A stretch of 64,000 nt of DNA from Sulfurovum sp. AR. GTDB lineage: Bacteria; Campylobacterota; Campylobacteria; Campylobacterales; Sulfurovaceae. A program made the position numbers and the translations under genes. Shown piece by piece: positions 40,171-57,597 of the stretch. The stretch covers positions 1-64,000 of the forward strand of contig NZ_AJLE01000010.1 in assembly GCF_000296775.1 (NCBI RefSeq), given 5' to 3'. The notes below the pieces were generated by a model, which ran no database searches, was not told the origin of the DNA, and was given only the letters and a program-made list of their open reading frames with translations. Positions within the stretch are counted from its first letter, which is position 1; each line of letters opens with the position of its first letter.

Positions 40171-40219
40171 ATACTCCCAAGCAGGTGCCTGGAAGTATGT
40201 CAGTAAGTATTAACTTACT
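40171..40219 (-). terminator. tandem hairpins after the Mo subunit
   Basis: A first stem (AGTAAGT 40202-40208 / ACTTACT 40213-40219) spans the stop codon of the Mo gene. The second (ATACT...AGTAT, 40171-40198) forms 12 bp on the minus strand if two G-U pairs are allowed, with a 4-base loop. The T tail is modest. Together they probably reduce read-through into the chaperone genes. Confidence 0.55.
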
Positions 40220-43200: not shown

Positions 43201-43544
43201 GATGCTTCACAGTTTGAACATGCTGTAGGAACAAGCATGTACTCAGTTGCTTTGATCCCATCTGGGTTATCTTCGCTCTGAACACCATTTCTACTTGTAC
43301 CACCTCTTTTCCAATCATCACCATCTAACTCGGTAAAACTATCCCACTCTTCTAACGGTGGATAGAATGAAAGTGTCTTTGGTGTAGGTGTGAACTTCGT
43401 TTCTGCCATTGCAGGCGTGTCTGCTACAGTTTTAAATACACCTGCAGCAAGTGTTGCACCTGCTACAGAGTAAGCTGTACCTTTAAGGAAACTTCTTCTA
43501 CCTTCGATAAAATTTTTATCTTCTGTATTCATTGATTTTGTCAT
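40215..43544 (-). CDS. Tat-exported molybdopterin oxidoreductase catalytic subunit (PsrA/SoeA/TtrA-like)
   Basis: This is a periplasmic Mo-bisMGD enzyme of the DMSO-reductase family, 1109 residues. It has a Tat motif RRSFLKG (16-22) with a hydrophobic region and AMA cleavage. FS0 cluster cysteines are Cys109, Cys112, Cys116 and Cys152. Cys248 in HTNICSAGAR is the likely Mo ligand. Its operon partners are a four-cluster FeS protein and an NrfD-type anchor, so it exchanges electrons with menaquinone. The substrate may be sulfite, polysulfide, thiosulfate or tetrathionate; the subfamily cannot be fixed by eye. Its length is larger than PsrA (about 760) and nearer to TtrA/SoeA, with insertions of unclear role. 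Confidence 0.85.
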   Translation of the reverse strand: MTKSMNTEDKNFIEGRRSFLKGTAYSVAGATLAAGVFKTVADTPAMAETKFTPTPKTLSFYPPLEEWDSFTELDGDDWKRGGTSRNGVQSEDNPDGIKATEYMLVPTACSNCEASCGLTAWVDLSTYKAGGQLAVRKYMGNPLHSGSRGRNCAKGYATQSQMYDPDRIPFPLKRAPGSKRGEGKWVRTTWDEAMKEIGQKMHDTLKTGDEISKKSIMYHVGRPNENGFGHRVPHSMGIDGYDSHTNICSAGARQGTIQWTNDDRNSPDWSNAKLIFLQSSHAADAGHYFQQAAGRIAEARKKGAKLVVMDPRLSNSAGMADLWVPCWPGTETALYLYLANRILNEKGINGEDLVNHNFVKNWVNWDHLMKDRDYLNVLVEKGYIKSVPAGNSYEEFIEMIAEMYSPYTLDFVAEECRIEKRIVEKLYDMFIDAGARVATYIWRAGPIGHKGGWMIARSAFLPFVLRGAMAGDKGGVGLHHWHVISVNGKGNAATVDGSAPAKVDVWNEIAWPPEYPLSSYEMSHIMPHLLMDDEWRNKWNAKGLNVPEKLAVWIPRMYNPVWINPDGFRWIEALKREDKIEMSFNLSPTWSETNWYCDYILPVGLAGERHDQHSEATEPKRWLSFRNPALRVALEKMGWKPKDPTRATLEAHIKAGLGEVWEEVEFWANIMTHYVDPDGSLGIRKHWASKEDPSRCVTIAEWYQAAFDNLPNLRKAAKAAYPDSKYPNYEMMRDRGTWLEEANIYKPQERPLKKVGDTYIAHGHEYHESEVTKDEFGVLLATGHDGKETAIGVEVDGELVQGFHTLTKKLDFYCEWFKEWKWPEYAIPIYPKNAEERKKMTHVVTQVHHDFMQKENEFALNTVFRLPYNIHTRSVNSKHLMEISQNHNPVWIYTEDAKRLGIKRGDAVKVTIQDTVSGLESGYFIAMAVPTEATMPGVLACSHHAGRWKLKNAVEIPGFEHKLGVMGLGAPLYEMTMDGKEGTLKPTQGIVDGMNENKNSWQFKEYNRDIDNIWWDGLSGSWQNAVAPSHPDPIAGNHAWHQKVVMELAGKDDQIGDIYVNYENNMKVYQAWRDKLTRPLDSTDTLRRPQHIKRPCVPLSDKAYAVKIK

Positions 43545-43557
43545 AGATATCTTCTCC

Positions 43558-44508
43558 TTAACTTAATGGTAACATTTGTGGGATCTTAAGCCATACATCT
43601 TTTACCAAGAATAACCCTACCAATGCTAAAATAGCTGCAAATCTAAGCAGCGTCATGTTTTCTGATTTCATGTAACTCATTCCTAAGAAGAATGGGATAA
43701 TAAATCCAAGTGTCATACCAAACCAGAATTCAACACTATATGCTCCGCCTGAATGTACATAGGCTAAAACGGCTTCTGCCTCTGAAGATTTGAATGAGAA
43801 GAAATACTCACCCATATACATCATGAAACTAAAGAATACAGCGAATGTAAGTACAAGTGCTAAATCTTTTCTTGCTTCTTTACTCCATGAACCAGAAATA
43901 AAGATAAGTGCTGCAGAACCGGCCATAAGTGCTGCCCACATCATTTGCATCACTTCAGTTGGTGCTTGCCATAACTCTCTTGCACTAGATTGTGCCATAA
44001 TGATCGCTGTATATGTTGTTACAGGAATCGCCAGGAATACCATGAATGGCATGATCTTTTCATAAAATCCAGAGTTGTTTCTAGCTATTGCAGTAAGTTT
44101 ACACTTCTTACCACCAAGACCTGGAAATGCATCTGCTACACCGATAACCATAAGGATCGTAATAATAGCTAGGAAAAGTGATGCCATCCATGCACCCACA
44201 GTAATTGATGAAGTCCAATGAGGATGCGTGAATATATGTATCATTCTGTATGGCTGATGTAGATCTATCAATGTAAACAATAAAAATACGTTCAGTGATA
44301 CGAATGCAAGTACAGGCATAAGCCATCTTAAGTTAGGCATTTCATCTTTTTTATGTCTAAACCATAGGAATGCCGCTAAAAAGACAACACCTGTACCGAT
44401 ACTTTTCGCCCACATGTTTACAGTAATAATACTACCCCAAACAAGTCCCTGAATTGGTACATCGAGTGTAACTACTGCTTGAGTTGCGTTAATTGTACTT
44501 TCTACCAT
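43558..44508 (-). CDS. NrfD/PsrC-like quinone-binding membrane anchor
   Basis: This is the integral membrane subunit that links the Mo enzyme to the quinone pool. It has about nine to ten hydrophobic segments over 316 residues. I use the ATG at 44508 because GGGAGGT lies 7 bases before it; an upstream ATG at 44586 falls inside the FeS gene without a ribosome site. The WGSIITVNMW-containing first segment and the order FeS-anchor-Mo are typical of the PsrC/SoeC/TtrC group. Whether it takes electrons from or gives them to menaquinone depends on the substrate. Confidence 0.85.
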   Translation of the reverse strand: MVESTINATQAVVTLDVPIQGLVWGSIITVNMWAKSIGTGVVFLAAFLWFRHKKDEMPNLRWLMPVLAFVSLNVFLLFTLIDLHQPYRMIHIFTHPHWTSSITVGAWMASLFLAIITILMVIGVADAFPGLGGKKCKLTAIARNNSGFYEKIMPFMVFLAIPVTTYTAIIMAQSSARELWQAPTEVMQMMWAALMAGSAALIFISGSWSKEARKDLALVLTFAVFFSFMMYMGEYFFSFKSSEAEAVLAYVHSGGAYSVEFWFGMTLGFIIPFFLGMSYMKSENMTLLRFAAILALVGLFLVKDVWLKIPQMLPLS

Positions 44509-44509
44509 C

Positions 44510-45268
44510 TTAGTGACCTCCCTCTTGTTCATGTGATTCAGTATCTGTCGCTGATTCAATAAAACTTGCGTTATCTGTTGGACCATGGTGCCCAGTAAAC
44601 GGTGCTAAGAATCTATCAAGGATACCGTGATTTTTATCACCTACATGCTCTAGGTGAGTAATGTCATTAAAGAGACTGAATCCTTCAATTCTCTGATGTG
44701 CAAGTGGGTTCAATGTTGCATTACCACCACCTACATAAAAGTGCGTTGGGCTTGTATGCTTTTCTGGTTTACGTACTTGAACAGCACCTTTGTGTTCCAT
44801 AATATAAAGTGAAATATGACTGTGGTCATCTTCAATATCACCAAAGATATTTGCTTCAACCGGACATGCAACCACACATGCTGGCATCATACCACTCTCA
44901 ATACGGTGTGCACAGTAAGTACATTTATCTGCTGTATTTGTTTCAGGATCCATATAGATCGCTCCATAAGGACATGCCATCATACAACCAGCACAACCGA
45001 TACATCTATCACTGTCAATGTTTACAATACCATTCTCTAGATAATGTAATGCCGATACTGGACAGATACGCTCACATGGTGCACTCTCACAGTGATTACA
45101 ACGTAATGGTGTAAATGATCTTCTAGTGTCAGGGAATGTTCCCAAATCTATATATTTAACACGTAAACGCCAAGTACTCAATGGAACTTCATTTTCCACT
45201 TTACAAGCAATCTCACAACCTTTACAACCCATACATAGGTTAAGGTCAACTAAGAAACCTAATTTCAT
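44510..45268 (-). CDS. four-cluster 4Fe-4S electron transfer subunit (DmsB/PsrB/NrfC-like)
   Basis: This subunit carries electrons between the catalytic subunit and the membrane anchor. The 252-residue protein has four ferredoxin-type cysteine motifs: CMGCKGCEIAC (12-22), CNHCESAPCERICP, CIGCAGCMMACP, and CTYCAHRIESG followed by CVVACP. It has no signal peptide, so it would be carried with the Tat-tagged Mo subunit. A His-rich acidic tail ends HEQEGGH. AAGGAGG before the ATG and first place in the operon suggest the promoter lies in the 245-base gap to 45513. Confidence 0.9.
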   Translation of the reverse strand: MKLGFLVDLNLCMGCKGCEIACKVENEVPLSTWRLRVKYIDLGTFPDTRRSFTPLRCNHCESAPCERICPVSALHYLENGIVNIDSDRCIGCAGCMMACPYGAIYMDPETNTADKCTYCAHRIESGMMPACVVACPVEANIFGDIEDDHSHISLYIMEHKGAVQVRKPEKHTSPTHFYVGGGNATLNPLAHQRIEGFSLFNDITHLEHVGDKNHGILDRFLAPFTGHHGPTDNASFIESATDTESHEQEGGH

Positions 45269-45513: not shown

Positions 45514-46491
45514 CTATTCAGTAAGTCCACTTAATATTTTTCTCATACCCGCCTGTGCAGCTTCCAAGACTTCGATATCTTCTTTGCCCTCTATAGCCAT
45601 GGAGCTCATCCAATTATAGACAGAAGGGAATCCAAGCAGCATCTCCTCTTCATCTTTCTTTTTACTTAGATAGAGTGAACATGGTGCATAGGCGCCTGCT
45701 TCCGGTCTTGTTTTCGCGATAGTGTAGATCACCGGTAGTTTACAGATGGAGTAGACTTCATAAAAATCAAATGCTTCGTAGTTTGACTCTTCAAATTCAT
45801 CACCCAAATTGTTGTGCCCTGCGATAACAAAACCATTCGGTGCAAGCTCGCCTTCAAAGCCCATTTTGAACTCTTCTAATTGATCTTCCCACTCATCTGG
45901 GTCCATCTCCATACTGTAATTCGTAACGAGTTCACCTTTTGGCTCTGTTTGCACATATGGTAATGTTTCAAATGAACCATTTGGCATGGCTTTTTTTAAT
46001 GTCTGCTTGACCAGTGCTCTTAGGTCATGAAGCGTTTTGTCATCTGCCGGAGTTTTCATGATCTTTGCCATCGCTTCGACTGTTAGAGAAGAGACAGAGA
46101 TCTTTTTTTCACCTTTTTTCGTATAGATCGACATACTCATAGGTGCGAAAAGACCTACATTTGGGTATTTCTTTACCAGTTCCAGAACGGCATCCGGTTT
46201 ATACAACGTGAAAAGATTATAGATATCAAAACCTGATTCTTTAAACTGCTTCACAAAAGGGCCATTCATATCCCTATTCGCAGAGATAACAAAACCTGCA
46301 TCTTTAAATGCCTGTTCTATACTTGCTGGAGTGATCTTACCATCTGCGTTCTCTGAAGTGAAGACTTCTATATCCGGAGCGGTACTTTTCATAGCAGCAG
46401 GTGCTTGAGCTGCACCCTTTACAGTTTCTTGAGCTATTACACCCGAGACGATCAATGATGCACAAAGCATCCCTTTAACTAACAATTTCAT
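45514..46491 (-). CDS. exported protein with two DUF302 domains
   Basis: This is a 325-residue periplasmic protein. A signal peptide ending at VIA (about 20) is followed by an Ala-rich linker and two copies of the DUF302 fold. The first is about 43-155 and contains YNLFTLYKPDAVLEL; the second is about 190-320 and contains YEAFDFYEVYSICKLPVIY. DUF302 proteins are common near sulfur-oxidation genes in Campylobacterota and other sulfur bacteria, but I know of no settled function. The gene has its own promoter with the same TTTACA repeats as soxX, so it is probably a separate but co-regulated part of the Sox system. Confidence 0.8.
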   Translation of the reverse strand: MKLLVKGMLCASLIVSGVIAQETVKGAAQAPAAMKSTAPDIEVFTSENADGKITPASIEQAFKDAGFVISANRDMNGPFVKQFKESGFDIYNLFTLYKPDAVLELVKKYPNVGLFAPMSMSIYTKKGEKKISVSSLTVEAMAKIMKTPADDKTLHDLRALVKQTLKKAMPNGSFETLPYVQTEPKGELVTNYSMEMDPDEWEDQLEEFKMGFEGELAPNGFVIAGHNNLGDEFEESNYEAFDFYEVYSICKLPVIYTIAKTRPEAGAYAPCSLYLSKKKDEEEMLLGFPSVYNWMSSMAIEGKEDIEVLEAAQAGMRKILSGLTE

Positions 46492-46520: not shown

Positions 46521-46552
46521 AATATAACAATCTTCTGTAAATAATATGTAAA
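46521..46552 (-). promoter_or_regulatory. promoter with TTTACA direct repeats ahead of the DUF302 gene
   Basis: On the minus strand TTTACA (46552-46547), five bases, TTTACA (46541-46536), nine bases and TATATT (46526-46521) lie in series. The last four of the nine are TTGT, so a third box TTGTTA follows at the same 11-base period. The spacing is the same as ahead of soxX. It is a candidate site for an OmpR-family regulator covering the -35 region. Confidence 0.65.
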
Positions 46553-46566
46553 TGTTTCAAGCTAGA

Positions 46567-47004
46567 TCATGGTTGGGCATAGGTATAGCCCCGAAGTTGC
46601 CTTTCTATGATCTCAACGATCCCTGCGGTTGCAAACCCAATGTCATCAAGCAGGTCTTTTTTCTCGATATGCAGTGTCCTCATGGTGTTTCCGCACGCAA
46701 TGAACTCTACATCATAGGTCATAAGTGCTTCTATACGTTTCCGTACATCGGCATCTCCCTTTTTCAGTAAAGACTTTAATCCCTGTCCATAGGCCACGAT
46801 AACCACTTCGGTGTTTTCCGGTCTATAGAATTTCATCACATTGTTCACCGTACTTAAAATACGGTTTATCTCTTTTACATCACCGCTAGGTATACCAAAT
46901 ACAAGCTGTCTAGGATTATCAATGGCAGGCTTTGGTTCTGCAAACTCTGTCTCTGCTACAGTAAAACTCAATACGCATACGAGTAATATCAATATTTTTT
47001 TCAT
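46567..47004 (-). CDS. exported DsrE-family protein
   Basis: This is a 145-residue protein with a signal peptide (about 1-17) followed by a DsrE/F-like alpha-beta fold. The single conserved cysteine Cys104 (FIACGNTMRT) lies where cytoplasmic DsrE proteins carry sulfur. Normally such proteins are cytoplasmic; here the signal peptide places it in the periplasm, beside the Sox proteins. It may bind or pass on sulfane sulfur, but that is inference. Its ATG overlaps the cytochrome/thioredoxin gene by ATGA. Confidence 0.82.
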   Translation of the reverse strand: MKKILILLVCVLSFTVAETEFAEPKPAIDNPRQLVFGIPSGDVKEINRILSTVNNVMKFYRPENTEVVIVAYGQGLKSLLKKGDADVRKRIEALMTYDVEFIACGNTMRTLHIEKKDLLDDIGFATAGIVEIIERQLRGYTYAQP

Positions 47005-47783
47005 TTTGTCTCCTTTTCCATCTGTTTCGTTTTAGCTTCTCTTAAAATATCCAGAAAATCCATTTTATTCCATGCACCAGGAAGATTCATTAATACTTTA
47101 GAATTTTCATCTATAAAAATAAAACTTGGAGTAAATTCAGCTTTTAATCCTAAAGGAAGCTCAGTTTTAGAAATATCGATCGCAACAGAGATAAAATCCT
47201 TTTCCAGCATATCGACCACTTCTTTTTCCACCATTACATCTCTATCCATTTTTCTACAGTAGTAGCAATCTTTCGTCATTACTTTAAGCATAATGATTTT
47301 ATGCTCCCTCTTTGCCTTTTGCAATGCTTTTTCAAATCCTTCATATTGTACACTATTTTTTTCTACGACCTTCTCGTCAAAATCATAAATATAGGTACTG
47401 ACTGCTTCAAGTTCCTCTTCACTCACCTTTCCTTTAAGACTAGGCATGGTTTCAAAAGACTGCATCACTTCGTCTAAACAAAGACTTTTTTGTCTATCTG
47501 GATCCAGCACATACTCACTGATAAATGCAGCCACTTCCATACGATGTATCTCATTATCTCCTTTAGGGTCCCCAATGCTCTTTTTTAATCTATAAGAGAG
47601 CTGGTTTAACGTGGGTGCAGTAAGCTTTAGCAGAGTATTGTTATAGTCTTGGAAGTTCTCTTTGAGTTTAGACATAGGGATATAGCCTTGATGACAAGAA
47701 GCACATTTTTTTTCATACACTTCCTTGCCTTCCATCGCAAAAAGAGTACTTATATATAACAATATAGCCAACGCTATTCTCAT
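47001..47783 (-). CDS. periplasmic cytochrome c-thioredoxin fusion protein
   Basis: This is a 260-residue exported protein. The N-terminal half is a c-type cytochrome with heme motif CASCH (27-31) and a possible axial Met in TMPSL (Met113). The C-terminal half is thioredoxin-like, with CYYC (173-176) and a cis-proline TPS (219). The Trx part shares the AKxEHKxIM pattern with the two free thioredoxin-like proteins at 58.7-59.5 kb. It may couple heme electrons to a disulfide reaction on SoxY or a related thiol protein. Its start overlaps the MBL-fragment gene by ATGA. Confidence 0.83.
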   Translation of the reverse strand: MRIALAILLYISTLFAMEGKEVYEKKCASCHQGYIPMSKLKENFQDYNNTLLKLTAPTLNQLSYRLKKSIGDPKGDNEIHRMEVAAFISEYVLDPDRQKSLCLDEVMQSFETMPSLKGKVSEEELEAVSTYIYDFDEKVVEKNSVQYEGFEKALQKAKREHKIIMLKVMTKDCYYCRKMDRDVMVEKEVVDMLEKDFISVAIDISKTELPLGLKAEFTPSFIFIDENSKVLMNLPGAWNKMDFLDILREAKTKQMEKETK

Positions 47784-48229
47784 TCTTCATCCTCATCATA
47801 CATTTCAAGTTCTCGATACGCTTCAAATACATTACGGCTGTGCAATACATCATAAAGTTTCATATCTTTATATTTTGGCATAGTGACTTTTTTAGTGACC
47901 TGTTCTATAGAAACATCATTATCCAACGCATCAAGTACCGCTTCTTTCATTTCAAGAAGGTAGGATTTGAGTGCCTGTGTAGAATTCGCATCTGTTTTAT
48001 ATCCATGACCTCCGATGATCACTTTAGGATGTCGTACCTCTATTTTTGCCAGTGCCTTAATAGAACCTATGATCGAACCGTCACGTATGGAAGTGACTCT
48101 GCCGTTAAACACTAGATCTCCCGCGAACAGTACTTTTTCATCCGGTTCAGAGACCTTTACAGGCGTTAAATCATATTCGTACGCCTGTGCCGTCCATAAA
48201 AACAGACACAGTGCTATGATGCTTTTCAC
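47780..48229 (-). CDS. exported half-length metallo-beta-lactamase-like protein
   Basis: This 149-residue protein starts with a good signal peptide (MKSIIALCLFLWTAQA). It then resembles only the C-terminal half of a SoxH-type metallo-beta-lactamase: VLFAGDLVFNGRV (metal-bridging Asp) and IIGGHGYKTD (a His ligand). The N-terminal half, with the HxHxDH zinc motif, is absent. The remaining motifs look intact and the frame is open. It could be a working fragment, a partner subunit or a decayed gene. It sits 8 bases after the porin gene. Confidence 0.7.
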   Translation of the reverse strand: MKSIIALCLFLWTAQAYEYDLTPVKVSEPDEKVLFAGDLVFNGRVTSIRDGSIIGSIKALAKIEVRHPKVIIGGHGYKTDANSTQALKSYLLEMKEAVLDALDNDVSIEQVTKKVTMPKYKDMKLYDVLHSRNVFEAYRELEMYDEDEE

Positions 48230-48237
48230 TCTTAATC

Positions 48238-49740
48238 CTAGAACAGGTAGTTAAACTCTAAACGATATTCGTTATAAGATACATCAGTTTTAAATCCACC
48301 AAGATTTGTTCTAGCAATATCATCATCCGCAGTGACAATGCCGATACGTGTTCTCATCTGAAGTCTTTTTGTGATGTTCGTCCAAGTATCCAAATGCCAC
48401 ACTGTGCTGTCTGCTTGTACATTCTCTTTTGCATCATCAAAATCTTGTACCGCGTATCTTAAACTCGCAGTCCATGTTGAGTTGAACTTATAGTGCACTC
48501 TTGCCATGAGTGTTTCAGTATTTGCAGCCCAGTTATACTGTGCCATTGCTCTTGTAAATCCACCTGTAGGGAATCCTCTCCATGGAGCCAAAATATCTGC
48601 CTCATCTGCCACTTTTGAGTAACCAAGTCTAAAGTAACCTTTTTTGTTTGGCATTTCAAGGTCAACTCTTCCACAGAAAAGACTACTGTCAAGTGAAGTA
48701 GCTACACCTGCATCATAACCATATGCATACTTACCACTAAGGTCTGTATATCCCGCAACATCACCACCACCATCATCCATTTGATGGAAATATCTCACAC
48801 CAGGTCTTACTGCCCAACCGTTATCCAGGTTGAATCTGTAGTGTCCTTCAGCCACAACATCTGTCACAACACCAGGCACTGTTAAAGCACTTAAAGTAAA
48901 ATCTAGATTGTCTATAGCTTTTGTCTTGATATCCCCTAAGAACATATCATGCTGTGGGTCGTCACCTTGAAGTGCAAAATTAGCGTAAGTAAGTCCTTTG
49001 TGAACAGCTGCATCATCATTATTTGCCCATTTGTCTTCGTTAGCTGTACTACCATTAGCTGTACCAAATGTAACAACATCATGCGCATCTTCATGATCTC
49101 TTAATTTTTGTTTTCCGAACCAAGCTACTCTCGCTGTTGTCTTTGGTGCTACTTTTGCACTCACAGATACACCATCAAAGGTATTTGGTATCATTTTTGT
49201 GTCATTTGAAGCCGTAAAGACTGATTCAAAGAGTTGGCGTCCAGCTTTCACATCAACTGTACCGTTATTGTACTCTAAATACGCTTGTCCAAGTACTCCC
49301 ATACCGTAAGCACCTGTTGTAAGAACTTTTCTTCTACTGAATGTATCTTTACCCGCTTTTACGATTCCTACATCCGCATCATCCTCTCTGAAGAATTCTG
49401 GGTTTAAAGAACCATAATAGCCCATTGTAAAGCTGAACCCATCTAATACAGCTGATTTATAGATAAGGCTTCCACCTAGACCCCACGCTTTATTGTCTTG
49501 ATTCTTTGCAGTTTCTGTATCCCAATCCCAATAGAATGTATTTGATCTGAGTCTTCCATAAAAGACACCTTCACCAAACATATCACGTATATTGTCTACG
49601 CTACCTGGTAACACATTATATTCAACTACCATATTACCTTTGAGTTTGCGTTTAGGTGTATCTGCCTTTGCAGCTTTAACTACTGGCTCTACCGGTGCAA
49701 TATCACCACCTGCCATTGCAGATGTACCCATACATAACAA
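48238..49740 (-). CDS. outer-membrane porin of the sox cluster, start region frameshifted
   Basis: This is a beta-barrel outer-membrane protein of about 500 residues, ending in LEFNYLF and resembling OprD-like or substrate-specific porins. It may bring thiosulfate or similar anions to the Sox proteins, which is inference from position. The open frame runs further upstream to codons for KISLAASALLCMGTSAMA, a perfect signal peptide, but these are preceded by ATA, not a start codon. An ATG at 49781 with AAAAGGGG before it begins MNKGK and then stops, one base out of frame. One extra A in the A4 run at 49767-49770 would join them. No better start exists; TTG at 49740 has no ribosome site. Confidence 0.75.
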   Translation of the reverse strand: MLCMGTSAMAGGDIAPVEPVVKAAKADTPKRKLKGNMVVEYNVLPGSVDNIRDMFGEGVFYGRLRSNTFYWDWDTETAKNQDNKAWGLGGSLIYKSAVLDGFSFTMGYYGSLNPEFFREDDADVGIVKAGKDTFSRRKVLTTGAYGMGVLGQAYLEYNNGTVDVKAGRQLFESVFTASNDTKMIPNTFDGVSVSAKVAPKTTARVAWFGKQKLRDHEDAHDVVTFGTANGSTANEDKWANNDDAAVHKGLTYANFALQGDDPQHDMFLGDIKTKAIDNLDFTLSALTVPGVVTDVVAEGHYRFNLDNGWAVRPGVRYFHQMDDGGGDVAGYTDLSGKYAYGYDAGVATSLDSSLFCGRVDLEMPNKKGYFRLGYSKVADEADILAPWRGFPTGGFTRAMAQYNWAANTETLMARVHYKFNSTWTASLRYAVQDFDDAKENVQADSTVWHLDTWTNITKRLQMRTRIGIVTADDDIARTNLGGFKTDVSYNEYRLEFNYLF

Positions 49741-49763
49741 CGCTGACGCTGCTAAACTGATTT

Positions 49764-49795
49764 TTATTTTCCCTTGTTCATTTTTTACCCCTTTT
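49764..49795 (-). other. start region of the porin: out-of-frame ATG, SD and A run
   Basis: AAAAGGGG (49795-49788) lies 6 bases before ATG (49781-49779). This frame reads five codons (MNKGK) to TAA at 49766-49764. The porin signal peptide continues in the next frame, right after the A4 run. The arrangement fits a one-base deletion, phase variation or a sequencing error; a translational shift at the run is also possible. Confidence 0.6.
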
Positions 49796-49843
49796 AGTAT
49801 TTTTAGTCGTAATGACTTAATTAACGATGTGTTATAATATGGC

Positions 49844-49858
49844 TGTGATTATATCACA
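49844..49858. promoter_or_regulatory. 15-bp palindrome upstream of the porin
   Basis: TGTGATTATATCACA is a perfect inverted repeat (TGTGAT/ATCACA with a 3-base centre), like a CRP/FNR-class half-site pair with a 5-base instead of 6-base core spacing. It overlaps -10-like TATA sequences for the minus-strand porin gene, so a bound factor would block or activate there. The factor is unknown. Confidence 0.45.
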
Positions 49859-49866
49859 ACCTCCAA

Positions 49867-49918
49867 TGCCTCGTCTTTCAAAAGGAGACTACAACATTTC
49901 TAATAGAAAGACGAGGCA
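49867..49918 (-). terminator. long perfect inverted repeat after soxB
   Basis: TGCCTCGTCTTTC (49867-49879) and GAAAGACGAGGCA (49906-49918) pair perfectly over 13 bp with a 26-base loop. It begins 11 bases past the soxB stop codon. No T run follows on the minus strand, so it may be an mRNA stabiliser, a partial terminator or a processing site that separates sox mRNA from the porin message. Confidence 0.55.
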
Positions 49919-49928
49919 CGGTGTTATC

Positions 49929-51707
49929 TTATGAACACTTCGCACCTTCGACCGGACATCCACAATCCATATCCAATATTTTCACATTAGACTCCATTGG
50001 AATATCGATCACTTTTTGTCTACGAATATAATCACTGACCACTTCATAGACTGGACGTATCGCTTTTTTATCAAGGTTTTCACCTACATTCTGCAAGTTT
50101 CCTCCCCATGATGAGACCCTATATGTTTTTTCCATATCGATTGGCTTACCACCGATCATAAAGTCTGAGATACGCTTACCAGATGGAGCAGAGATAGTGA
50201 TACTGTAACTTGCACCCGTGATTCTACTCATGTCACCACCCTGTTGTAAAAGCGGGTTAGCATTAAATACATTATCTGCTATATCTTCCATCAATTTTGC
50301 TATCACTTTACCTTTGAGGTCAAATGTATAAACCTCAGGGTATGTGATCGCTGTCATCTCATAGACATTGTCTTTTAAGATGTCATCACCTGGAAGTACT
50401 GTTGTCCCCCATCTATATCCTGGGTTAAAGTTGATATCACATTTCATCTCATCTTGAATTGCCATACCTATAAGCGAATCAAACGTTGAGTAGAACGTAT
50501 CTCTTTTATAAAGAAGTCCTTTGGTTGTACCTAGCACTTCATTGAGCTCTTTGTTGTAAGGTTTATACCATTTTTCAATCAGCTCTTCACCCGCTTTATC
50601 TGCAGGGATAAGATTTGAAGCTACAGGTATCAGTTTATAACTGTAACCCGCTACTTTTTTATCTTTGATATCCAGATCAAGTCTAGAAATATATTTACCA
50701 TGGCTTCCTGAGATGATAATGACCGTGTCATTGACAATAATTGGCTCCGGACTAGGATCATGTGTATGTCCACTTAAGATAAAGTCAACACCTGTCACTT
50801 TTTTAGCCAGTTCCTGGTCTACAGAGAATCCATCATGACTCAGTACAACGACTGCATCTACTTTTTTCTCATTACGAAGTTCATTCACGTACTCTTGAAG
50901 TGTTTCATGACGTAGTGCAAAACTCCATCCTTCTGTAAACTTTTTAGGGTTTGCCGTAGAAGTGAACGGGAATGACTGACCGATAATACCGATCTTTGCT
51001 CCGCCTATCTCCTGGATAGAGTATGGTGGGAATATCAGCTCTTCAAACTCATCCGAGAATGGATCATTATCGATCACGTTTTGAGAGATAAAATCTCCCT
51101 TTAGCATACCGATAAGTTCTTGCACACGTTCCTTACCATAGGTAAATTCCCAGTGTCCAACCATCACATCTACACCCAAGTAGTTTTGTGCATCGACGAT
51201 CGCTTCACCGTCAGTTTTAAGTGCAACTGCTGTACCTTGCCATGTATCACCACTGTCTACAAGAATGACGTTTTCTTCACCTCTTTCTTTTTTGACATGA
51301 TCAATGATTGGCTTCATATGTGCAATACCACCCATCTTACCGAACTTCTTAGCAAGTTCGGTAAAATCATTATGCGTATCAAAATATGCATCTAATGAAC
51401 CTGGCTGGATACCATAATATTTTTGAAAACTCTCACCACAGATGAATCCTGGTGTACCCACCAGGTTCTTAGCTGAGATCAGTGTAGATGGTTCTCTCCA
51501 GTAAAGCGGTTTAAGGTGCGCATGCAAATCACAAATATGTAAAATCGTTGCTTTACCTTTTGCCTTGAAATCTACGATATCTGAAAAACTCAATTTTTTA
51601 ATACGCTCTTTACCAGCTTCACCGGCAAAAAGATTTGTTCCTCCAGTTGCACCCAGCAAACCTAATGTTGCTGCGATCTGGAGGAAGTCTCGTCTATCTA
51701 TTTCCAT
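49929..51707 (-). CDS. soxB: thiosulfohydrolase SoxB
   Basis: SoxB removes the sulfonate group from SoxY-bound sulfur as sulfate. The 592-residue protein has a Tat signal (RRDFL at 5-9) and the dimetal (Mn) motifs DLHAH (60-64), DSGDTWQG (151-158), GHWEFTYG near 184, SHDG near 300 and SGHTHD near 322. The C-terminal tail has an unusual Cys cluster, DCGCPVEGAKCS. It is the last gene of soxXYZAB, 9 bases after soxA. The 13-bp inverted repeat follows. No soxCD lies in the window, so elemental sulfur or polysulfide might be an intermediate unless soxCD is elsewhere. Confidence 0.96.
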   Translation of the reverse strand: MEIDRRDFLQIAATLGLLGATGGTNLFAGEAGKERIKKLSFSDIVDFKAKGKATILHICDLHAHLKPLYWREPSTLISAKNLVGTPGFICGESFQKYYGIQPGSLDAYFDTHNDFTELAKKFGKMGGIAHMKPIIDHVKKERGEENVILVDSGDTWQGTAVALKTDGEAIVDAQNYLGVDVMVGHWEFTYGKERVQELIGMLKGDFISQNVIDNDPFSDEFEELIFPPYSIQEIGGAKIGIIGQSFPFTSTANPKKFTEGWSFALRHETLQEYVNELRNEKKVDAVVVLSHDGFSVDQELAKKVTGVDFILSGHTHDPSPEPIIVNDTVIIISGSHGKYISRLDLDIKDKKVAGYSYKLIPVASNLIPADKAGEELIEKWYKPYNKELNEVLGTTKGLLYKRDTFYSTFDSLIGMAIQDEMKCDINFNPGYRWGTTVLPGDDILKDNVYEMTAITYPEVYTFDLKGKVIAKLMEDIADNVFNANPLLQQGGDMSRITGASYSITISAPSGKRISDFMIGGKPIDMEKTYRVSSWGGNLQNVGENLDKKAIRPVYEVVSDYIRRQKVIDIPMESNVKILDMDCGCPVEGAKCS

Positions 51708-51716
51708 TTTATCCCC

Positions 51717-52493
51717 TTATCTCTTCAATCCAGGGATGGCCATAGTTTTTTGCTTATCCGCTGCAAGTTTATTTACGTATACTTCCAAAGCATTCATCTC
51801 TTTAGATCCTAAAGGAATCACTGCAAGCAATGCATTGTTCATACATCCTTGAAATCTTCTTTGTGTGGTTCTAAGACTTGACTTTGTCATACGGTATGCC
51901 GGCCATGTACCAGCAACATTATTCTCACCAAGATCCGGAAGTGGTTGTGTTCGAAGTACTTGTCCAATGATATCTGCACTGTGACAAGAGTTACAAGCAA
52001 GTCCTCTTCCTCCTCTTGGTGTCATATATACTTCTTCACCTAATGCATAAGCTGCTTTAATGTGTTCATCTGCATTGACATCGATATTGATCACTTCATC
52101 ATTTGCCAATGATTTCACATAAGCAAGCATAGAGAACATTTTCCCTGATTTGAGTGGTGTTTTCTCTTTACCCTGCTCTACCTGCATTACTTGCATGACT
52201 TGGTCAAGTCCTACAACATTACCAAGCTTTTTGATATATCTTGGGAAACCAGCAACGTATTTTGGCAACTCTTTTTCAGAAATACCTAAAAATTTTGCTA
52301 AAGCTGCTTCTCCACCTATCTCTTCTTCAAAAATCTCTCCACCTTCTTCTACAAAGATATCAGCGGGATTATTTTCTAACATTTCTGAATACATAGCTCT
52401 ATCAGCATCACTCATAGCGAACTGCTCACTAGCACTTACCGTTACAGTCCCCATAGCCGTCAAAAGAGCTAATGGTAATATGACTCTTTTCAT
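51717..52493 (-). CDS. soxA: SoxA, c-type cytochrome of the SoxAX complex
   Basis: SoxA, with SoxX, joins thiosulfate to the SoxY cysteine by oxidation. The 258-residue protein has a signal peptide (about 1-21), one heme motif CNSCH (167-171) and the axial-ligand motif RFQGC (Cys217) whose cysteine is persulfidated in the family. This is a single-heme SoxA, as is common in Campylobacterota, in contrast to the two-heme type. It follows soxZ after 3 bases and precedes soxB by 9. Confidence 0.95.
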   Translation of the reverse strand: MKRVILPLALLTAMGTVTVSASEQFAMSDADRAMYSEMLENNPADIFVEEGGEIFEEEIGGEAALAKFLGISEKELPKYVAGFPRYIKKLGNVVGLDQVMQVMQVEQGKEKTPLKSGKMFSMLAYVKSLANDEVINIDVNADEHIKAAYALGEEVYMTPRGGRGLACNSCHSADIIGQVLRTQPLPDLGENNVAGTWPAYRMTKSSLRTTQRRFQGCMNNALLAVIPLGSKEMNALEVYVNKLAADKQKTMAIPGLKR

Positions 52494-52496
52494 TGC

Positions 52497-52832
52497 TTAT
52501 CCTTTTGGTTTAAGTTTTTTACTCTTAGAGTTTTTCTCACCCGTATTGTCTGTATAATCAACTGTGATCGTACCTTTACCAGGTACTTTTAGGTTCACTG
52601 AAAAATAAGGGTTTGTTGAAACAGTTTCCCACACTTTCATAGTCGTAAATGGCTTACCATCTAATGAGAAAGTAATATTATCTATAAAGTGTGCTGGGAT
52701 GATCTCTCCAGTTTTTTTATCTTTTTGTAATCCTGTATCCATCGGGTGAATTACAATAAAATCAACCTTTACTGTATCTCCCACCTTAAACTTTTTAGGT
52801 TTAATTTTTATCATTGACTTTCTTTCTGCCAT
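52497..52832 (-). CDS. soxZ: SoxZ, sulfur-carrier complex subunit
   Basis: SoxZ is the structural partner of SoxY in the periplasmic carrier complex. The 111-residue protein has the Ig-like fold pattern with IKIKPKKFKVGDTV near the start and HFIDNITFSLDGKP (about 48-61). It has no signal peptide and is expected to be exported in complex with the Tat-tagged SoxY. AAAGGAAAA precedes its ATG. An unusual 103-base gap with a hairpin separates it from soxY. Confidence 0.94.
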   Translation of the reverse strand: MAERKSMIKIKPKKFKVGDTVKVDFIVIHPMDTGLQKDKKTGEIIPAHFIDNITFSLDGKPFTTMKVWETVSTNPYFSVNLKVPGKGTITVDYTDNTGEKNSKSKKLKPKG

Positions 52833-52864
52833 CTGTTTTCCTTTGTAATAATTATCATACTTTC

Positions 52865-52887
52865 AAAGAAAGGTCATGCCCTTCTTT
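52865..52887 (-). repeat. hairpin between soxY and soxZ
   Basis: AAAGAAAGG (52865-52873) and CCCTTCTTT (52879-52887) pair over 9 bp with one G-U pair on the minus strand and a 5-base loop. It sits in a 103-base gap inside the sox operon, where soxY and soxZ are usually nearly adjacent. It may set the relative expression of soxXY and soxZAB. Confidence 0.5.
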
Positions 52888-52935
52888 CATGCCTCAAGCT
52901 AAAAATTTCTATGTTCAAAATATCTCTTTATGAGA

Positions 52936-53403
52936 TCAACCACATCCACCGATTGTTACTTTAACACTTTTCGCTGACTTTATAAATGTACCATTGCTAA
53001 GCTCTACCAAGGCAACTACATCTTGTGTTCCACCCAATTTGATTCTTGTTGCAAAATATCCTTTTCCATTTAACGGTGTAAGCATGACATCTGCACATCT
53101 TGCATTACCATTTTTGGTACTCAATACATGGATCGCTTTTACATAATTGTTTTCTTCCATAGGATGATCTACATCAACTTTTACAGGTACAACCGCACCA
53201 TTTTCTGCAATTTCAGGTACTGTCAAATTCACTTTATCGCTGTCTGCTACAGCTTTTCCACCTGTGATAGCTGCTACAGCTGCATCATAACTCAAAACAT
53301 TTCCACCTTTTGGTGCTTCTTTTGCAAATAATGCCGAAGGTGTCACTGTTGCTGCTACAGCTGATGCTGCACAGATACTTTTTATAAAATTTCTTCTTTC
53401 CAT
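52936..53403 (-). CDS. soxY: SoxY, sulfur-carrier protein
   Basis: SoxY holds the sulfur substrate on a C-terminal cysteine. The 155-residue protein has a Tat-type signal (RRNFIK at 3-8, ending AxxA) and an Ig-like fold. It ends in GGCG, the carrier motif; the family form is GGCGG, so one glycine is missing at the tail. The last-but-one cysteine is intact and should be enough for loading. An AAGGAA ribosome site is upstream, 13 bases after soxX. Confidence 0.93.
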   Translation of the reverse strand: MERRNFIKSICAASAVAATVTPSALFAKEAPKGGNVLSYDAAVAAITGGKAVADSDKVNLTVPEIAENGAVVPVKVDVDHPMEENNYVKAIHVLSTKNGNARCADVMLTPLNGKGYFATRIKLGGTQDVVALVELSNGTFIKSAKSVKVTIGGCG

Positions 53404-53416
53404 TCTTTAGTTCCTT

Positions 53417-53992
53417 TTATTTTTTCTTTTTTTCTGATACGACGTACGCAGTATAATCACAAATCTCTTGCTCAGTAAAGAGTCCTGTAGTAAGATTCAC
53501 TGTCATATGTGTATTTGGATTATCCACTCTAGGATCAGCAATTTTCTGATAGACAAATTGTGCATCTCTTACTTTTGTATCTAGGAACATTTCCTTATAC
53601 CCTGTAAGACTAGGACCAATGTTTCCTGCACCCTTCGCCCCTTCAATGTCATGACATGCTACACAGTTACCATACTGTTTAGGCTCTTTTTTCACTTTGC
53701 CATCTTTACCTTTTTTCTCAACAGTCTTAGCCAAACCTTCTGGTAGTTTTCCCTTTGCTTTTGCACCATTGAGATTATGGAACATAAATTCCCCTCTTGC
53801 GATTGCCTTAGCATCTGTAAGATCGCAGCTTTTTGGCATTGTGTACGTTTTAGCCGCTGGGAATAGATCTTTCTCTATTATCTTTGTTGCATCTGGCATA
53901 TCATATGCTTTTGTCAAATCCACAGCACATAGTGATGCTGAAGCTGATAAAAACAATGTTGCATAAGCAAAACATTTGATCTTTGTATGCAT
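53417..53992 (-). CDS. soxX: SoxX, c-type cytochrome
   Basis: SoxX is the electron-accepting half of SoxAX. The 191-residue protein has a signal peptide (about 1-23), a heme motif CVACH (110-114) and a likely axial methionine in THMTV (about Met163). An inserted Lys-rich stretch (about 78-106) precedes the heme. It is the first gene of soxXYZAB, with AAGGAG 5 bases before its ATG. The promoter 32-71 bases upstream carries three TTTACA boxes, so regulation by the nearby two-component system is likely. Confidence 0.93.
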   Translation of the reverse strand: MHTKIKCFAYATLFLSASASLCAVDLTKAYDMPDATKIIEKDLFPAAKTYTMPKSCDLTDAKAIARGEFMFHNLNGAKAKGKLPEGLAKTVEKKGKDGKVKKEPKQYGNCVACHDIEGAKGAGNIGPSLTGYKEMFLDTKVRDAQFVYQKIADPRVDNPNTHMTVNLTTGLFTEQEICDYTAYVVSEKKKK

Positions 53993-54023
53993 TCATACTC
54001 CTTTTTATTTGTTTTCAAGAAGC

Positions 54024-54063
54024 ATCATAACAAAGGAATGTAAAGAAAGTGTAAAAATGTAAA
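54024..54063 (-). promoter_or_regulatory. soxX promoter with TTTACA direct repeats
   Basis: On the minus strand three TTTACA copies (54063-54058, 54055-54050, 54044-54039) are followed after nine bases by TATGAT (54029-54024). The inner two are 11 bases apart, and TTGT precedes the -10 as ahead of the DUF302 gene. The layout fits an OmpR-family activator site, most likely of the adjacent response regulator. Confidence 0.7.
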
Positions 54064-54118: not shown

Positions 54119-55264
54119 TTAGAAGATATATTTAAAGGTAGTACCCTCTCCAAATTTTGAATCGACCTCTAAAAGAATATCTTCTTCATCGATAATTTTC
54201 TTTACGATATTCAACCCTATACCAAAGCCACCTTTGGCTTCATTCTCTCTGTAATATCGTGAAAATATTTTACTCGTATCCTTTATACCGACACCATGAT
54301 CTTGTACTTCAAATACTATATGGTCATCCACCCTATATACACTGATCTCAACATTACTATTGTCATTGCTGTATTTGATAGCATTCGAGATCGTGTTATC
54401 AACGATACGCTGCAGTTTCGTTTTTGAAAAAATATGTCTAAGTCCCGAAAGGATATTCGTATGGAGTTGTATCTGCTTAAGATTTGCTATTTCTTGAAAA
54501 TAATCTACTCTATTTTGGATAAATTCACCAAAGTCCAAGTCGCTTTTTTTATACTTGACCCTTCCTTCTTTGACAAGATAATCCATATCATTGTAAATCG
54601 TCGCAAGTGTTTTAGCAGCAGACTTCATTCGCAACAAATATTTATTTTCACCATATTTACTCGCAAAAAGGTCAGAATTGAGGTTAATGATACTTAAAGG
54701 CGTATTGATCTCATGCATAGAATCTTTGATGAAGTTATCAAGCTGCGTATTGAGTTTTTCAAAAGGCCTTGAAAAATTTCTAAGCAATAAAAATGAAAAT
54801 ATAAATAGCGCGATCACAATAGCGATCATGACCATTGCAGCAAAAAAATAAATATTATTGGCCGTATGCACAGTAGAAACCAATAAATAGTTCGCACCAA
54901 AATAATAACCGTTCGGAAGGGAATAAACATAATAATAACGGTTTCTATTTTGATGAAATCCTTCCGTAAAAGAGAGAGGTTCAAACTCTAAATTTGAAAA
55001 TATCACTTCATACTGATCCGTATAGAGTGCTGCTTTATACTCTTTATAGCGTGGGAAATAGTAGACTTGATCTTCGTTTTGATAGTGCTGCATCGAGGTG
55101 ATGATCTTCTTTGCCTGTGCTTCAAGGGAGAGTTTCACTTTTGCCTCATCTATCTGTAAAAGTAGCTGAACATAGACCACCAGCGGTGCTATCAACAGAA
55201 CAGCCAATATCCCCGTGTAGATAAACGCATATTTACGGGCAAAATCATCGGTATTAAAAATCAA
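54119..55264 (-). CDS. membrane sensor histidine kinase next to sox genes
   Basis: This is a 381-residue kinase with two membrane segments (about 14-36 and 137-163) and a periplasmic loop of about 100 residues. It has an H-box DSMHEINTPL (His184) and N, G1 and G2 boxes (NAIKYS, VQDHGVGI, GFGIGLNIV). It belongs to the HisKA class. It overlaps the response regulator end by 11 bases, so the two are a pair. It is placed directly upstream of soxX and may sense thiosulfate or redox state; the signal is unknown. Confidence 0.88.
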   Translation of the reverse strand: MIFNTDDFARKYAFIYTGILAVLLIAPLVVYVQLLLQIDEAKVKLSLEAQAKKIITSMQHYQNEDQVYYFPRYKEYKAALYTDQYEVIFSNLEFEPLSFTEGFHQNRNRYYYVYSLPNGYYFGANYLLVSTVHTANNIYFFAAMVMIAIVIALFIFSFLLLRNFSRPFEKLNTQLDNFIKDSMHEINTPLSIINLNSDLFASKYGENKYLLRMKSAAKTLATIYNDMDYLVKEGRVKYKKSDLDFGEFIQNRVDYFQEIANLKQIQLHTNILSGLRHIFSKTKLQRIVDNTISNAIKYSNDNSNVEISVYRVDDHIVFEVQDHGVGIKDTSKIFSRYYRENEAKGGFGIGLNIVKKIIDEEDILLEVDSKFGEGTTFKYIF

Positions 55265-55913
55265 TACTATATCCTACGCCACGCACATTTTTAATAAAAT
55301 CTTTTTCAAGTTTTTTACGTAAACTACCTACTTGTACACGAATATTGGCAGGATCCACCCACTCTCCCCATACCTCTTCCCAAAACATTTCACAACTTAC
55401 CACAGACCCTCTCTTTTTAATCAGAAGTTCCAATATCTTTGCCTCTGTTTTGGCTAGTTGCACCGTTTCACCATTAAACGTAAGTTTCATCTTTTTGAGG
55501 TCATAACTATACCCTGATGGCAGTTCTATGCTCTCATCGGATGAAGCAAAACATTGTACTTTCATCACCTGTTCTACCCGTAATTTCAGTTCTGCCAGGT
55601 CAAAAGGTTTCCGTATATAATCACATGCACCGCATTCATACCCTCGACTCAGATCATCTATATCTGTCAAAGAAGTAATGAAGATAGCCGGTGTCATATT
55701 GCCATCTTCCCGTAACTCCTCTAGCATTTCAAAACCATTCTTCTCACCAGGTACTTTCACATCCAAAAGCAGTAGATCATAAACGTTCTCATAAATCGCA
55801 TCATACGCTGCATCAGCATCGGTGAAACATTCAACTTCATACCCGCTCTCTTCTAAAAATTCCCTCATACTGAGTGCAAGTATACTTTCATCTTCTAAAA
55901 TTAGTATTTTCAT
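55254..55913 (-). CDS. OmpR-family response regulator of the sox region
   Basis: This is a 219-residue response regulator with a receiver (1 to about 115, Asp51 in LLLDVKVPG, Lys102 in RKPF) and a winged-helix output ending RGVGYSIDF. All key receiver residues are present. Its neighbours make it the prime candidate for binding the TTTACA repeats at soxX and at the DUF302 gene. It overlaps the sensor-like gene by ATGA and the kinase by 11 bases. The target genes are inferred from the shared motif. Confidence 0.9.
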   Translation of the reverse strand: MKILILEDESILALSMREFLEESGYEVECFTDADAAYDAIYENVYDLLLLDVKVPGEKNGFEMLEELREDGNMTPAIFITSLTDIDDLSRGYECGACDYIRKPFDLAELKLRVEQVMKVQCFASSDESIELPSGYSYDLKKMKLTFNGETVQLAKTEAKILELLIKKRGSVVSCEMFWEEVWGEWVDPANIRVQVGSLRKKLEKDFIKNVRGVGYSIDF

Positions 55914-57046
55914 TTTATCGTCCCTAACTTTTTCTCATTATGCTTATTTTCAACAATGATATCAATAAGCTCATCCTTGCTATAACCATACAGGATACGT
56001 TTCGCTTCTACTTCAAGTTCTTTTTTATCTTCTTCATTTAATTTTGGTAAGACTCCTATGAGCTCTTTGTCATAGGCGTTACGGAAACTGTCATGTGGCG
56101 TCTGCCAGGCTTCAACGACATTTTTGATATCTTCATCTGAAAACTGAGTGAAGACCGACACACGTTGATCTGCTTTTTCATGTTGTTTCAGTGCATCCTT
56201 CGAGATACATAACAGATAGATACCGATCTGTTTCCCGACCCCATTGACCATAGGCTCATAGAGATAAAGCATACCATCTTCATACTCATAATTATTCAGC
56301 AACAAAGCGTCCCAGTCCAACATTTCTATTTTATCCATGTATTGTTGGTTATAGTTTTGATTGGAGATCACATATCCGTTCAAGAGAGGGAAATTCCGCA
56401 TCAGTTCGGCTTGTTCCAGATATTTCTCATCCATCAGTGCAAAAAGTTCGATACCTTTTTTACGTAGTTTGAGTGTAAAATCATCGATAAATTTGATCAC
56501 TTCGAGATAACCAAGTACCCTATCTCCACTGCGCACAGGGATCGTAGCTTTCAACGTCAGTAATCTACCCGTTTCCATCCCTACTTTTGGATGGCTGTTC
56601 TTATCCAGTGAGGCAAGATCCTCCCTGAACCACCAAATGGGCATTCCTTGATACCCTTCATCCCAACTACGTGCAAAAATGAAAAAATCCGGAGTCAATA
56701 CCTGGATACGCAGGGTTTTTACATGTGTATATTTTTTAAACCTTTCTGTTATCCTACTGAGTATTCGATACCCTTGAGACTCATTATCTGCTGTCAATGC
56801 ATTTTTTAGTTCACCATCTTCAGAGAGTGCCAAAGACAATGAGAGAAGATCGGCCATCTCATAGTCAAGTCCTGCTCTAAAATCACTGACTATCTGATCC
56901 CCTAGACTTATAAGTCTGTCTTCTTTACTTTGTTGTACAAAGAAAAAAACCGAGATAAAAAGGATCATCAATACACCAAAAGTAATATAGGCTGCTATTT
57001 TACTGATGTACTTTGAAGGTGTACATGATTTCATTTTTACACGCAT
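55910..57046 (-). CDS. single-membrane-span dCache-like sensor protein
   Basis: This is a 378-residue protein with one membrane segment (about 17-38), then a large periplasmic domain with the pattern of a Cache/dCache ligand sensor (LEVIKFIDDFTLKLR in a late strand). A helical tail of about 110 residues follows. There is no kinase, GGDEF or methyl-accepting domain. It is the first gene of a three-gene unit with the response regulator and the histidine kinase. I infer that it binds a ligand in the periplasm and acts on the kinase. The gene starts near 57046 with AGGA upstream; an ATG at 57034 is an alternative. Confidence 0.75.
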   Translation of the reverse strand: MRVKMKSCTPSKYISKIAAYITFGVLMILFISVFFFVQQSKEDRLISLGDQIVSDFRAGLDYEMADLLSLSLALSEDGELKNALTADNESQGYRILSRITERFKKYTHVKTLRIQVLTPDFFIFARSWDEGYQGMPIWWFREDLASLDKNSHPKVGMETGRLLTLKATIPVRSGDRVLGYLEVIKFIDDFTLKLRKKGIELFALMDEKYLEQAELMRNFPLLNGYVISNQNYNQQYMDKIEMLDWDALLLNNYEYEDGMLYLYEPMVNGVGKQIGIYLLCISKDALKQHEKADQRVSVFTQFSDEDIKNVVEAWQTPHDSFRNAYDKELIGVLPKLNEEDKKELEVEAKRILYGYSKDELIDIIVENKHNEKKLGTIK

Positions 57047-57129
57047 AAAATGGGATCCTATTCCTAACTATTTATATTTTTTTTATATTATAACGCTATC
57101 CTATCTTAAACTTACTAAAAGGAACATAC

Positions 57130-57597
57130 ATGAAAAAAATTCTCTTGAGCCTACTCTTCACTTTAGGCATATTATACGCACAAGAAGCGCCTGCCAAAGT
57201 TGTGTACGATCTGACCACCAAAGATCTGAAGAATTTTGAACTGCGTATTTTAAGTGCCGTGGTATCCAATAAAGCACATTATGAAAGTACCTTGCGAGAG
57301 CTTGATGTTTCGGTGGTCATTCATGGCGGTGCCTACAAGTTCTTTCTAAAAGACCCTGCAGCAAGTAAATTTAAAGATGACAAAGCCTTACTTTCTAGCT
57401 ATCAAACGCTTGGAAAACGTATACAAACACTGGCCGACACCTATGAGGTTGAATTTTTGGTATGCGGGGTCGGTTTACGGAAACACGGTCTAGAAAAAAA
57501 TGATGTCTATGACTTTGTAAAGGTCATCCCGAATGCATCCATAGGTTTGATAGACAAACAGAATGCAGGGTATGCCTTTATACCTATCGGAGATTAA
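57130..57597 (+). CDS. second exported DsrE-family protein
   Basis: This is a 155-residue protein with a signal peptide (1 to about 17) and a DsrE-like fold, with Cys112 in FLVCGVGLRKHG in the same place as Cys104 of the other copy. It is divergent from the dCache gene across 83 bases; AAAGGAA is upstream of its ATG. It is probably periplasmic and related to sulfur handling. The two copies differ strongly, so they are not a recent duplication. Confidence 0.8.
   Translation: MKKILLSLLFTLGILYAQEAPAKVVYDLTTKDLKNFELRILSAVVSNKAHYESTLRELDVSVVIHGGAYKFFLKDPAASKFKDDKALLSSYQTLGKRIQTLADTYEVEFLVCGVGLRKHGLEKNDVYDFVKVIPNASIGLIDKQNAGYAFIPIGD

Follow-up and report, generated by a model that had tools for sequence, protein, structure and literature searches.

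The direct repeat TTTACA-N5-TTTACA located ahead of soxX and of a DUF302 gene in the 64-kb window (the whole stretch of DNA analysed) is, with good probability, the DNA site of the OmpR-family response regulator encoded next to soxX, which would activate from it a promoter without a -35 box, as KdpE and PhoB do. We hold about evenly balanced a wider reading of the comparative data, in which an order-wide subfamily of this regulator, with a near-fixed TTTACA-N5-TTTACA site, has been redeployed between soxXYZAB and multihaem cytochrome modules. The Sulfurovaceae sox form would then be a three-part sensor, composed of an output-less dCache-like protein, a kinase and the regulator, that acts as the chief switch for soxXYZAB, with the separate soxCD cluster outside its control. 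The features concerned are as follows, with the sensor protein, regulator and kinase abbreviated as SENS, RR and HK.

45514..46491, minus strand: gene for the DUF302 protein, last in the sox cluster (PF03625 over cut-off)
46521..46552, minus strand: DUF302 promoter, with TTTACA at 46547-46552, TTTACA at 46536-46541 and the -10 box TATATT at 46521-46526
46567-47004, minus strand: dsrE, sox cluster continuation
47001-47783, minus strand: cytochrome/thioredoxin gene, sox cluster continuation
47780-48229, minus strand: SoxH-like MBL fragment (mbl), sox cluster continuation
48238-49740, minus strand: porin gene, sox cluster continuation
49929-51707, minus strand: soxB (NCBIfam equivalog over cut-off)
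51717-52493, minus strand: soxA (NCBIfam equivalog over cut-off)
52497-52832, minus strand: soxZ (NCBIfam equivalog over cut-off)
52936-53403, minus strand: soxY (NCBIfam equivalog over cut-off)
53417..53992, minus strand: soxX, first soxXYZAB gene (TIGR04485 over cut-off)
54024..54055, minus strand: soxX promoter, with TTTACA at 54050-54055, TTTACA at 54039-54044 and the -10 box TATGAT at 54024-54029, extended by TGT
54119..55264, minus strand: HK, sensor histidine kinase and partner of RR (HATPase_c over cut-off, HisKA just below)
55254..55913, minus strand: RR, OmpR-family response regulator that is proposed to bind the repeat (over cut-off for both Response_reg and Trans_reg_C)
55910..57046, minus strand: SENS, dCache-like sensor anchored in the membrane and lacking an output domain (weak dCache_3 match below the Pfam cut-off)
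57071..57102, plus strand: degenerate third site, TTTATA-N5-TTTATA-N9-TATCCT, ahead of dsrE2 (57130)
57130..57597, plus strand: dsrE2, divergent from SENS-RR-HK (PF02635 over cut-off)

With soxX, soxY, soxZ, soxA and soxB all over their NCBIfam cut-offs, the locus is a Sox-type thiosulfate oxidation cluster. The order on the minus strand is SENS, RR, HK, soxX, soxY, soxZ, soxA, soxB, porin, mbl, cytochrome/thioredoxin, dsrE and DUF302, and both the RR-HK pair and the part from the porin to dsrE (46567..49740) keep their order in relatives. The OmpR-family regulator that the first-pass annotation had placed upstream of soxX is confirmed by the domain scores of RR (86.4 bits for PF00072 and 61.8 bits for PF00486, each over cut-off). 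An AlphaFold model of SENS (pLDDT 73.6) returned dCache and tandem-PAS sensor domains as Foldseek matches. Downstream of DUF302, a set of NrfC, NrfD and molybdopterin oxidoreductase genes occupies positions 40215-45268 of the window; no curated NCBIfam model scored over cut-off for its subunits, the best being TtrB, DMSO-reductase II and PhsA-like.

A pattern search of the window returned exact copies of TTTACA-N5-TTTACA at 54039-54055 and 46536-46552, both on the minus strand and within the soxX and DUF302 promoters, respectively, and both run on as N9-TANNNT with TGT preceding the -10 box. The arrangement of repeat and -10 box initially described for these two genes is thus borne out. The accompanying statement that the pair is absent from the other gaps holds at up to one mismatch, where no third copy exists in the 64 kb, but it overlooked the degenerate site at 57071-57102 (plus strand). 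Likewise, the TTGT noted before both -10 boxes is present, but it is largely a common extended -10 element (TGn) and lies outside the repeat. Since AT-rich DNA often contains the hexamer TTTACA, and a -10 box with its TG belongs to promoters in general, the pair might be an ordinary sigma-70 element that serves no dedicated regulator in such AT-rich genomes, or a coincidence. Simulation of the window with a first-order Markov model, however, gave a chance expectation of 0.025 exact pairs per 64 kb, and two exact pairs occurred in 0 of 400 simulations. Conservation, the loss of the repeat with RR and the promoter spacing, all described below, also argue against this reading, to which we give hardly any credence.

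The 2.13-Mb genome contains four exact pairs, the two in the window included. We rejected the other two as candidates: no gene was found shortly downstream of the match at C6:330675, which among 150 genomes is common to the same species only, and the match at C8:78550 lies within a gene. For the composite promoter (repeat plus -10 box) at up to three mismatches, the genome yielded 8 matches against 1 for a reversed control, with the soxX and DUF302 sites ranking first and second.

The upstream and downstream TTTACA lie 20 bp and 9 bp from the -10 box, respectively, and therefore neither is a normal -35 element, which further disfavours a plain sigma-70 feature. In the promoters checked, no hexamer resembling TTGACA was found at spacers of 16-18, and none of 53 promoters has TATAAT as its -10 box, as expected of an activator-dependent promoter; the G of the extended -10 is conserved in 85% of aligned promoters. 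Class II OmpR-family activators sit at the position that the repeat takes. It is conceivable that RR binds here as a repressor, covering the -35 region and leaving on induction, as sites over -35 do either and position alone cannot separate the two. There is, however, no -35 at normal spacing to cover, the -10 boxes are off consensus, and two sister genomes without RR carry the consensus TATAAT at soxX, as if compensating for a lost activator, which a lost repressor would not require. We therefore regard repression as unlikely and favour activation, for which the KdpE-like geometry at the class II position argues together with the -10 boxes and the two sister genomes.

Loci retrieved with SoxB from Sulfurovum and relatives keep the SENS-RR-HK-sox order, and the exact repeat stands at soxX in nearly all of them. 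A set of 79 non-redundant loci was then compared. Among genomes with RR, it is exact at 68/74 soxX promoters, which span several families with unrelated flanks, and the rest have one mismatch (five promoters) or two (one promoter); conservation at orthologous promoters, a check proposed in the first-pass annotation, is thereby confirmed. Among soxX genomes lacking RR, it is exact in 0/5, with 1, 3, 3, 4 and 4 mismatches. The association of RR with the exact repeat gives a Fisher p of 2e-5, relatedness being ignored. The SoxB tree requires three changes in RR, each accompanied by a change in the motif in nearly all random pairings; three independent changes are too few for a sign test and carry no significance on their own. 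The presence of RR was scored per genome, with five genomes carrying it on a contig other than that of sox. The set without RR consists of five genomes, three of them 81-84% complete, and in one (L063) the contig ends shortly upstream of soxX. One locus without RR (L055) nevertheless retains the repeat intact save one base, and the upstream half-site is altered in a clade that has RR (L052/L184/L186), reading TTTATA-N5-TTTACA in L184 and L186.

Both hexamers are conserved across families of the order while the flanks diverge, the alignment of flanks having taken exact-repeat promoters only, so that the invariance of the hexamers there is by selection. Relatives of RR in other families of the order mostly adjoin sox, with the exact repeat. 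As the repeat is kept where RR is kept and lost where RR is lost, it is very probably the RR binding site.

The site also follows the regulator subfamily away from sox. Several genomes have an RR-HK pair that belongs to this subfamily (about 50-56% identity) and adjoins multihaem cytochrome genes, with a doubled CXXCH motif; there, the exact repeat lies directly after the HK gene. Sox-side and cytochrome-side regulators have in common the recognition-helix region DPAN-[IV]RV[QH]-xx-LRKK, which is different in three RR paralogs of the own genome. A more distant RR (47%) beside sox pairs with TTTACG-N5-TTTACA (L321). Separately, in L248, L249, L256, L259 and L261, a small cytochrome c gene (113-115 aa), lying several kb from the cytochrome gene after HK, has the exact TTTACA-N5-TTTACA upstream.

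On contig C10 of the own genome (L315:3083-6095), a paralogous RR-HK pair has a small secreted protein gene nearby, which is preceded by TTCACA-N5-TTCACA-N9-TATTAT (L315:5716), with C replacing T as the third half-site base. This one case suggests that related regulators may use related half-sites. The genome has at least seven response regulators matching at E<=1e-30, and, given the related repeat near the C10 paralog, a different OmpR-family regulator might bind the sox repeat with the neighbouring RR a bystander. We consider this very unlikely: the site is kept or lost together with the sox-side RR, it also occurs beside RR-HK copies away from sox, and it is not enriched in genomes that lack the sox-side RR while retaining other response regulators.

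Scanning 150 Sulfurovaceae genomes for the composite gave 95 matches against 12 for reversed-pattern controls. The excess falls to the 40 genomes with RR (80 composite versus 3 control matches), compared with 15 versus 9 in the 110 without, a split counted by hand and inflated by near-identical genomes; the former set includes G147, part of whose RR lies on its sox contig (L068). An order-wide scan shows an excess over control too. By hand count, the first genes downstream are soxX (34), DUF302 (19), a MoxR-like ATPase (5), a porin-like gene close upstream of sox (3), dsrE2 (2) and a rhodanese-like gene (1). Matches overlapping thiamine-synthesis-like genes (L114, L117, L153, L164, L165) lie inside ORFs and were taken as coding background. 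The proposed enrichment ahead of sox and DUF302 is therefore real, but its exclusivity did not stand, as dsrE2, porin-like, MoxR-like and, in relatives, cytochrome genes also carry the site.

At the separate soxC promoter, the repeat is absent in 12 genomes with RR, the best match having two mismatches, and the soxCD cluster was ruled out as a regulon member. Almost all good genomes of the genus have soxC, with or without RR. The site is thus not a general sox feature, and its absence from soxC promoters of the same genomes again speaks against a common sigma-70 element.

Several further occurrences were recorded. The MoxR-like AAA ATPase genes have the exact composite in five Sulfurovaceae genomes (L131, L138, L169, L170, L172), with the start codon only 5-9 nt past the -10 box, as if the transcript were leaderless. 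Apparent rRNA operon upstream regions contain the composite in four close relatives (L144:3413 and 9414; L136, L142, L158), a 16S signature following one copy after 1.2 kb; coincidence or another function may account for this. At C6:400988-401019 (L020, L335, L336), the gene for a secreted S8 protease is preceded by TTTAGA-N5-TTTACA with TTTGTTATGAT, nearly a copy of the soxX promoter. Another genome of this species keeps the promoter, while the gene is otherwise sporadic in the genus, and it is a candidate target.

DUF302 had been viewed at first as a distant, unlinked target. Instead, it closes the co-directional soxXYZAB-porin-mbl-trx-dsrE-DUF302 cluster at its distal end, and its site, being in the short dsrE-DUF302 gap, is an internal promoter of that one long cluster. 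In most of the loci examined, dsrE is followed by DUF302. In loci outside Sulfurovum, DUF302 usually begins a few bases past dsrE and the site is absent, so that it would be transcribed as part of the sox operon. Most close Sulfurovum relatives, and also L276 from another family, have a wider gap containing the exact repeat. The site is absent in some Sulfurovum-like loci with RR (L048, L049) and has one mismatch in L042; where DUF302 is duplicated within one cluster, it precedes the first copy only. From these gap patterns, DUF302 seems to stay co-regulated in one of two ways, as part of the operon or through a second promoter copy. In L123 (G024:C1:1762001-1782000), the unit of DUF302 promoter and gene occurs three times, ~3.9 kb apart, with identical promoter sequence. 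At dsrE2, several relatives have an exact or one-mismatch repeat in the place of the degenerate third site.

Comparative evidence strongly supports the view that RR would bind direct repeats one helical turn apart. Each 6-bp half-site would take one RR molecule, the two arranged head to tail, and the pair would recruit RNA polymerase to a promoter with a -10 box but no proper -35 (class II activation). SENS-RR-HK would thereby control the soxXYZAB cluster through the soxX promoter and, in most Sulfurovum, through a second control point, the internal promoter that precedes DUF302 at the distal cluster end. The signal may be a periplasmic sulfur compound or redox state: it is the gene neighbourhood and the dCache-like sensor that point, perhaps, to a thiosulfate or redox response, in which SENS would have a co-sensing role. 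The core of the first-pass annotation, namely an OmpR-family regulator, a direct repeat in place of the -35 box and a regulon that includes DUF302, is therefore well supported by conservation, co-loss and the site travelling with the RR subfamily.

Campylobacterota play a major part in sulfur oxidation at hydrothermal vents. None of the open-access papers searched reports a sox regulator for this phylum: a review of respiratory regulation names none for its sox genes (PMC6682613), and the Arcobacter butzleri genome paper describes the switch between oxidation and reduction of sulfite as yet to be identified (PMC2147049). With a regulator named, an exact site given and targets predicted, sox control can be tested directly. 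If the proposal is true, the site would be a simple marker distinguishing regulated from unregulated sox clusters, and it would show how separate expression of soxXYZAB and soxCD could arise.

The sox system belongs to a known class, the OmpR-family two-component regulons. The closest counterpart of the site is that of E. coli KdpE at kdpFABC, two 6-bp AT-rich direct repeats reading TTTATA-N5-TTTACA (PMC3264566); KdpE, like RR, is of the OmpR/PhoB family, and the half-site letters are almost the same and the spacing is the same. KdpE, however, controls a K+ pump, whereas the neighbours or targets of RR are sox or cytochrome genes. Solved KdpE is a distant sequence match only (E 1e-17), KdpE is not among the best 25 NCBIfam models for RR, all of which score far below cut-off, and there are no kdp genes at the locus; the likeness is one of working, not of membership. 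In the E. coli pho box, two direct repeats 11 bp apart replace the -35 upstream of the -10 box, and PhoB activates as a class II factor. This layout is that of the RR site but the half-site letters differ, and RR scores 119.6 bits against a PhoB equivalog cut-off of 296.2. Campylobacter jejuni DccR reportedly recognises TTCAC-N6-TTCAC, a geometry nearly the same as here, and DccRS is likewise an OmpR-type system of the Campylobacterota; its look-alike, TTCACA-N5-TTCACA, adjoins the paralogous RR rather than the sox RR. DccRS activates genes for periplasmic and membrane proteins, with a signal tied to growth phase (PMC9449129). A literature search for CpxR-type GTAAA repeats found no paper. Sulfurospirillum PceP, the OmpR-family regulator of PCE respiration, resembles RR as a Campylobacterota regulator of energy metabolism, but its pathway and site differ, the latter being CTATW-N17-CTATW overlapping the -35, with a TANNAT -10 box (PMC7755780). 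SoxR and sHdrR of Hyphomicrobium also place sulfur-oxidation genes under the control of sulfur compounds, but as ArsR-type, sulfane-sulfur-responsive one-component repressors, unlike the two-component activator proposed here (PMC12423496, PMC10451225). In Acidithiobacillus caldus, from an unrelated phylum, RsrS-RsrR provides a case of two-component control of sulfur-compound oxidation such as we propose, with an OmpR-like regulator acting on tetH/doxDA of the tetrathionate pathway through the 19-bp site AACACCTGTTACACCTGTT (PMC5093147).
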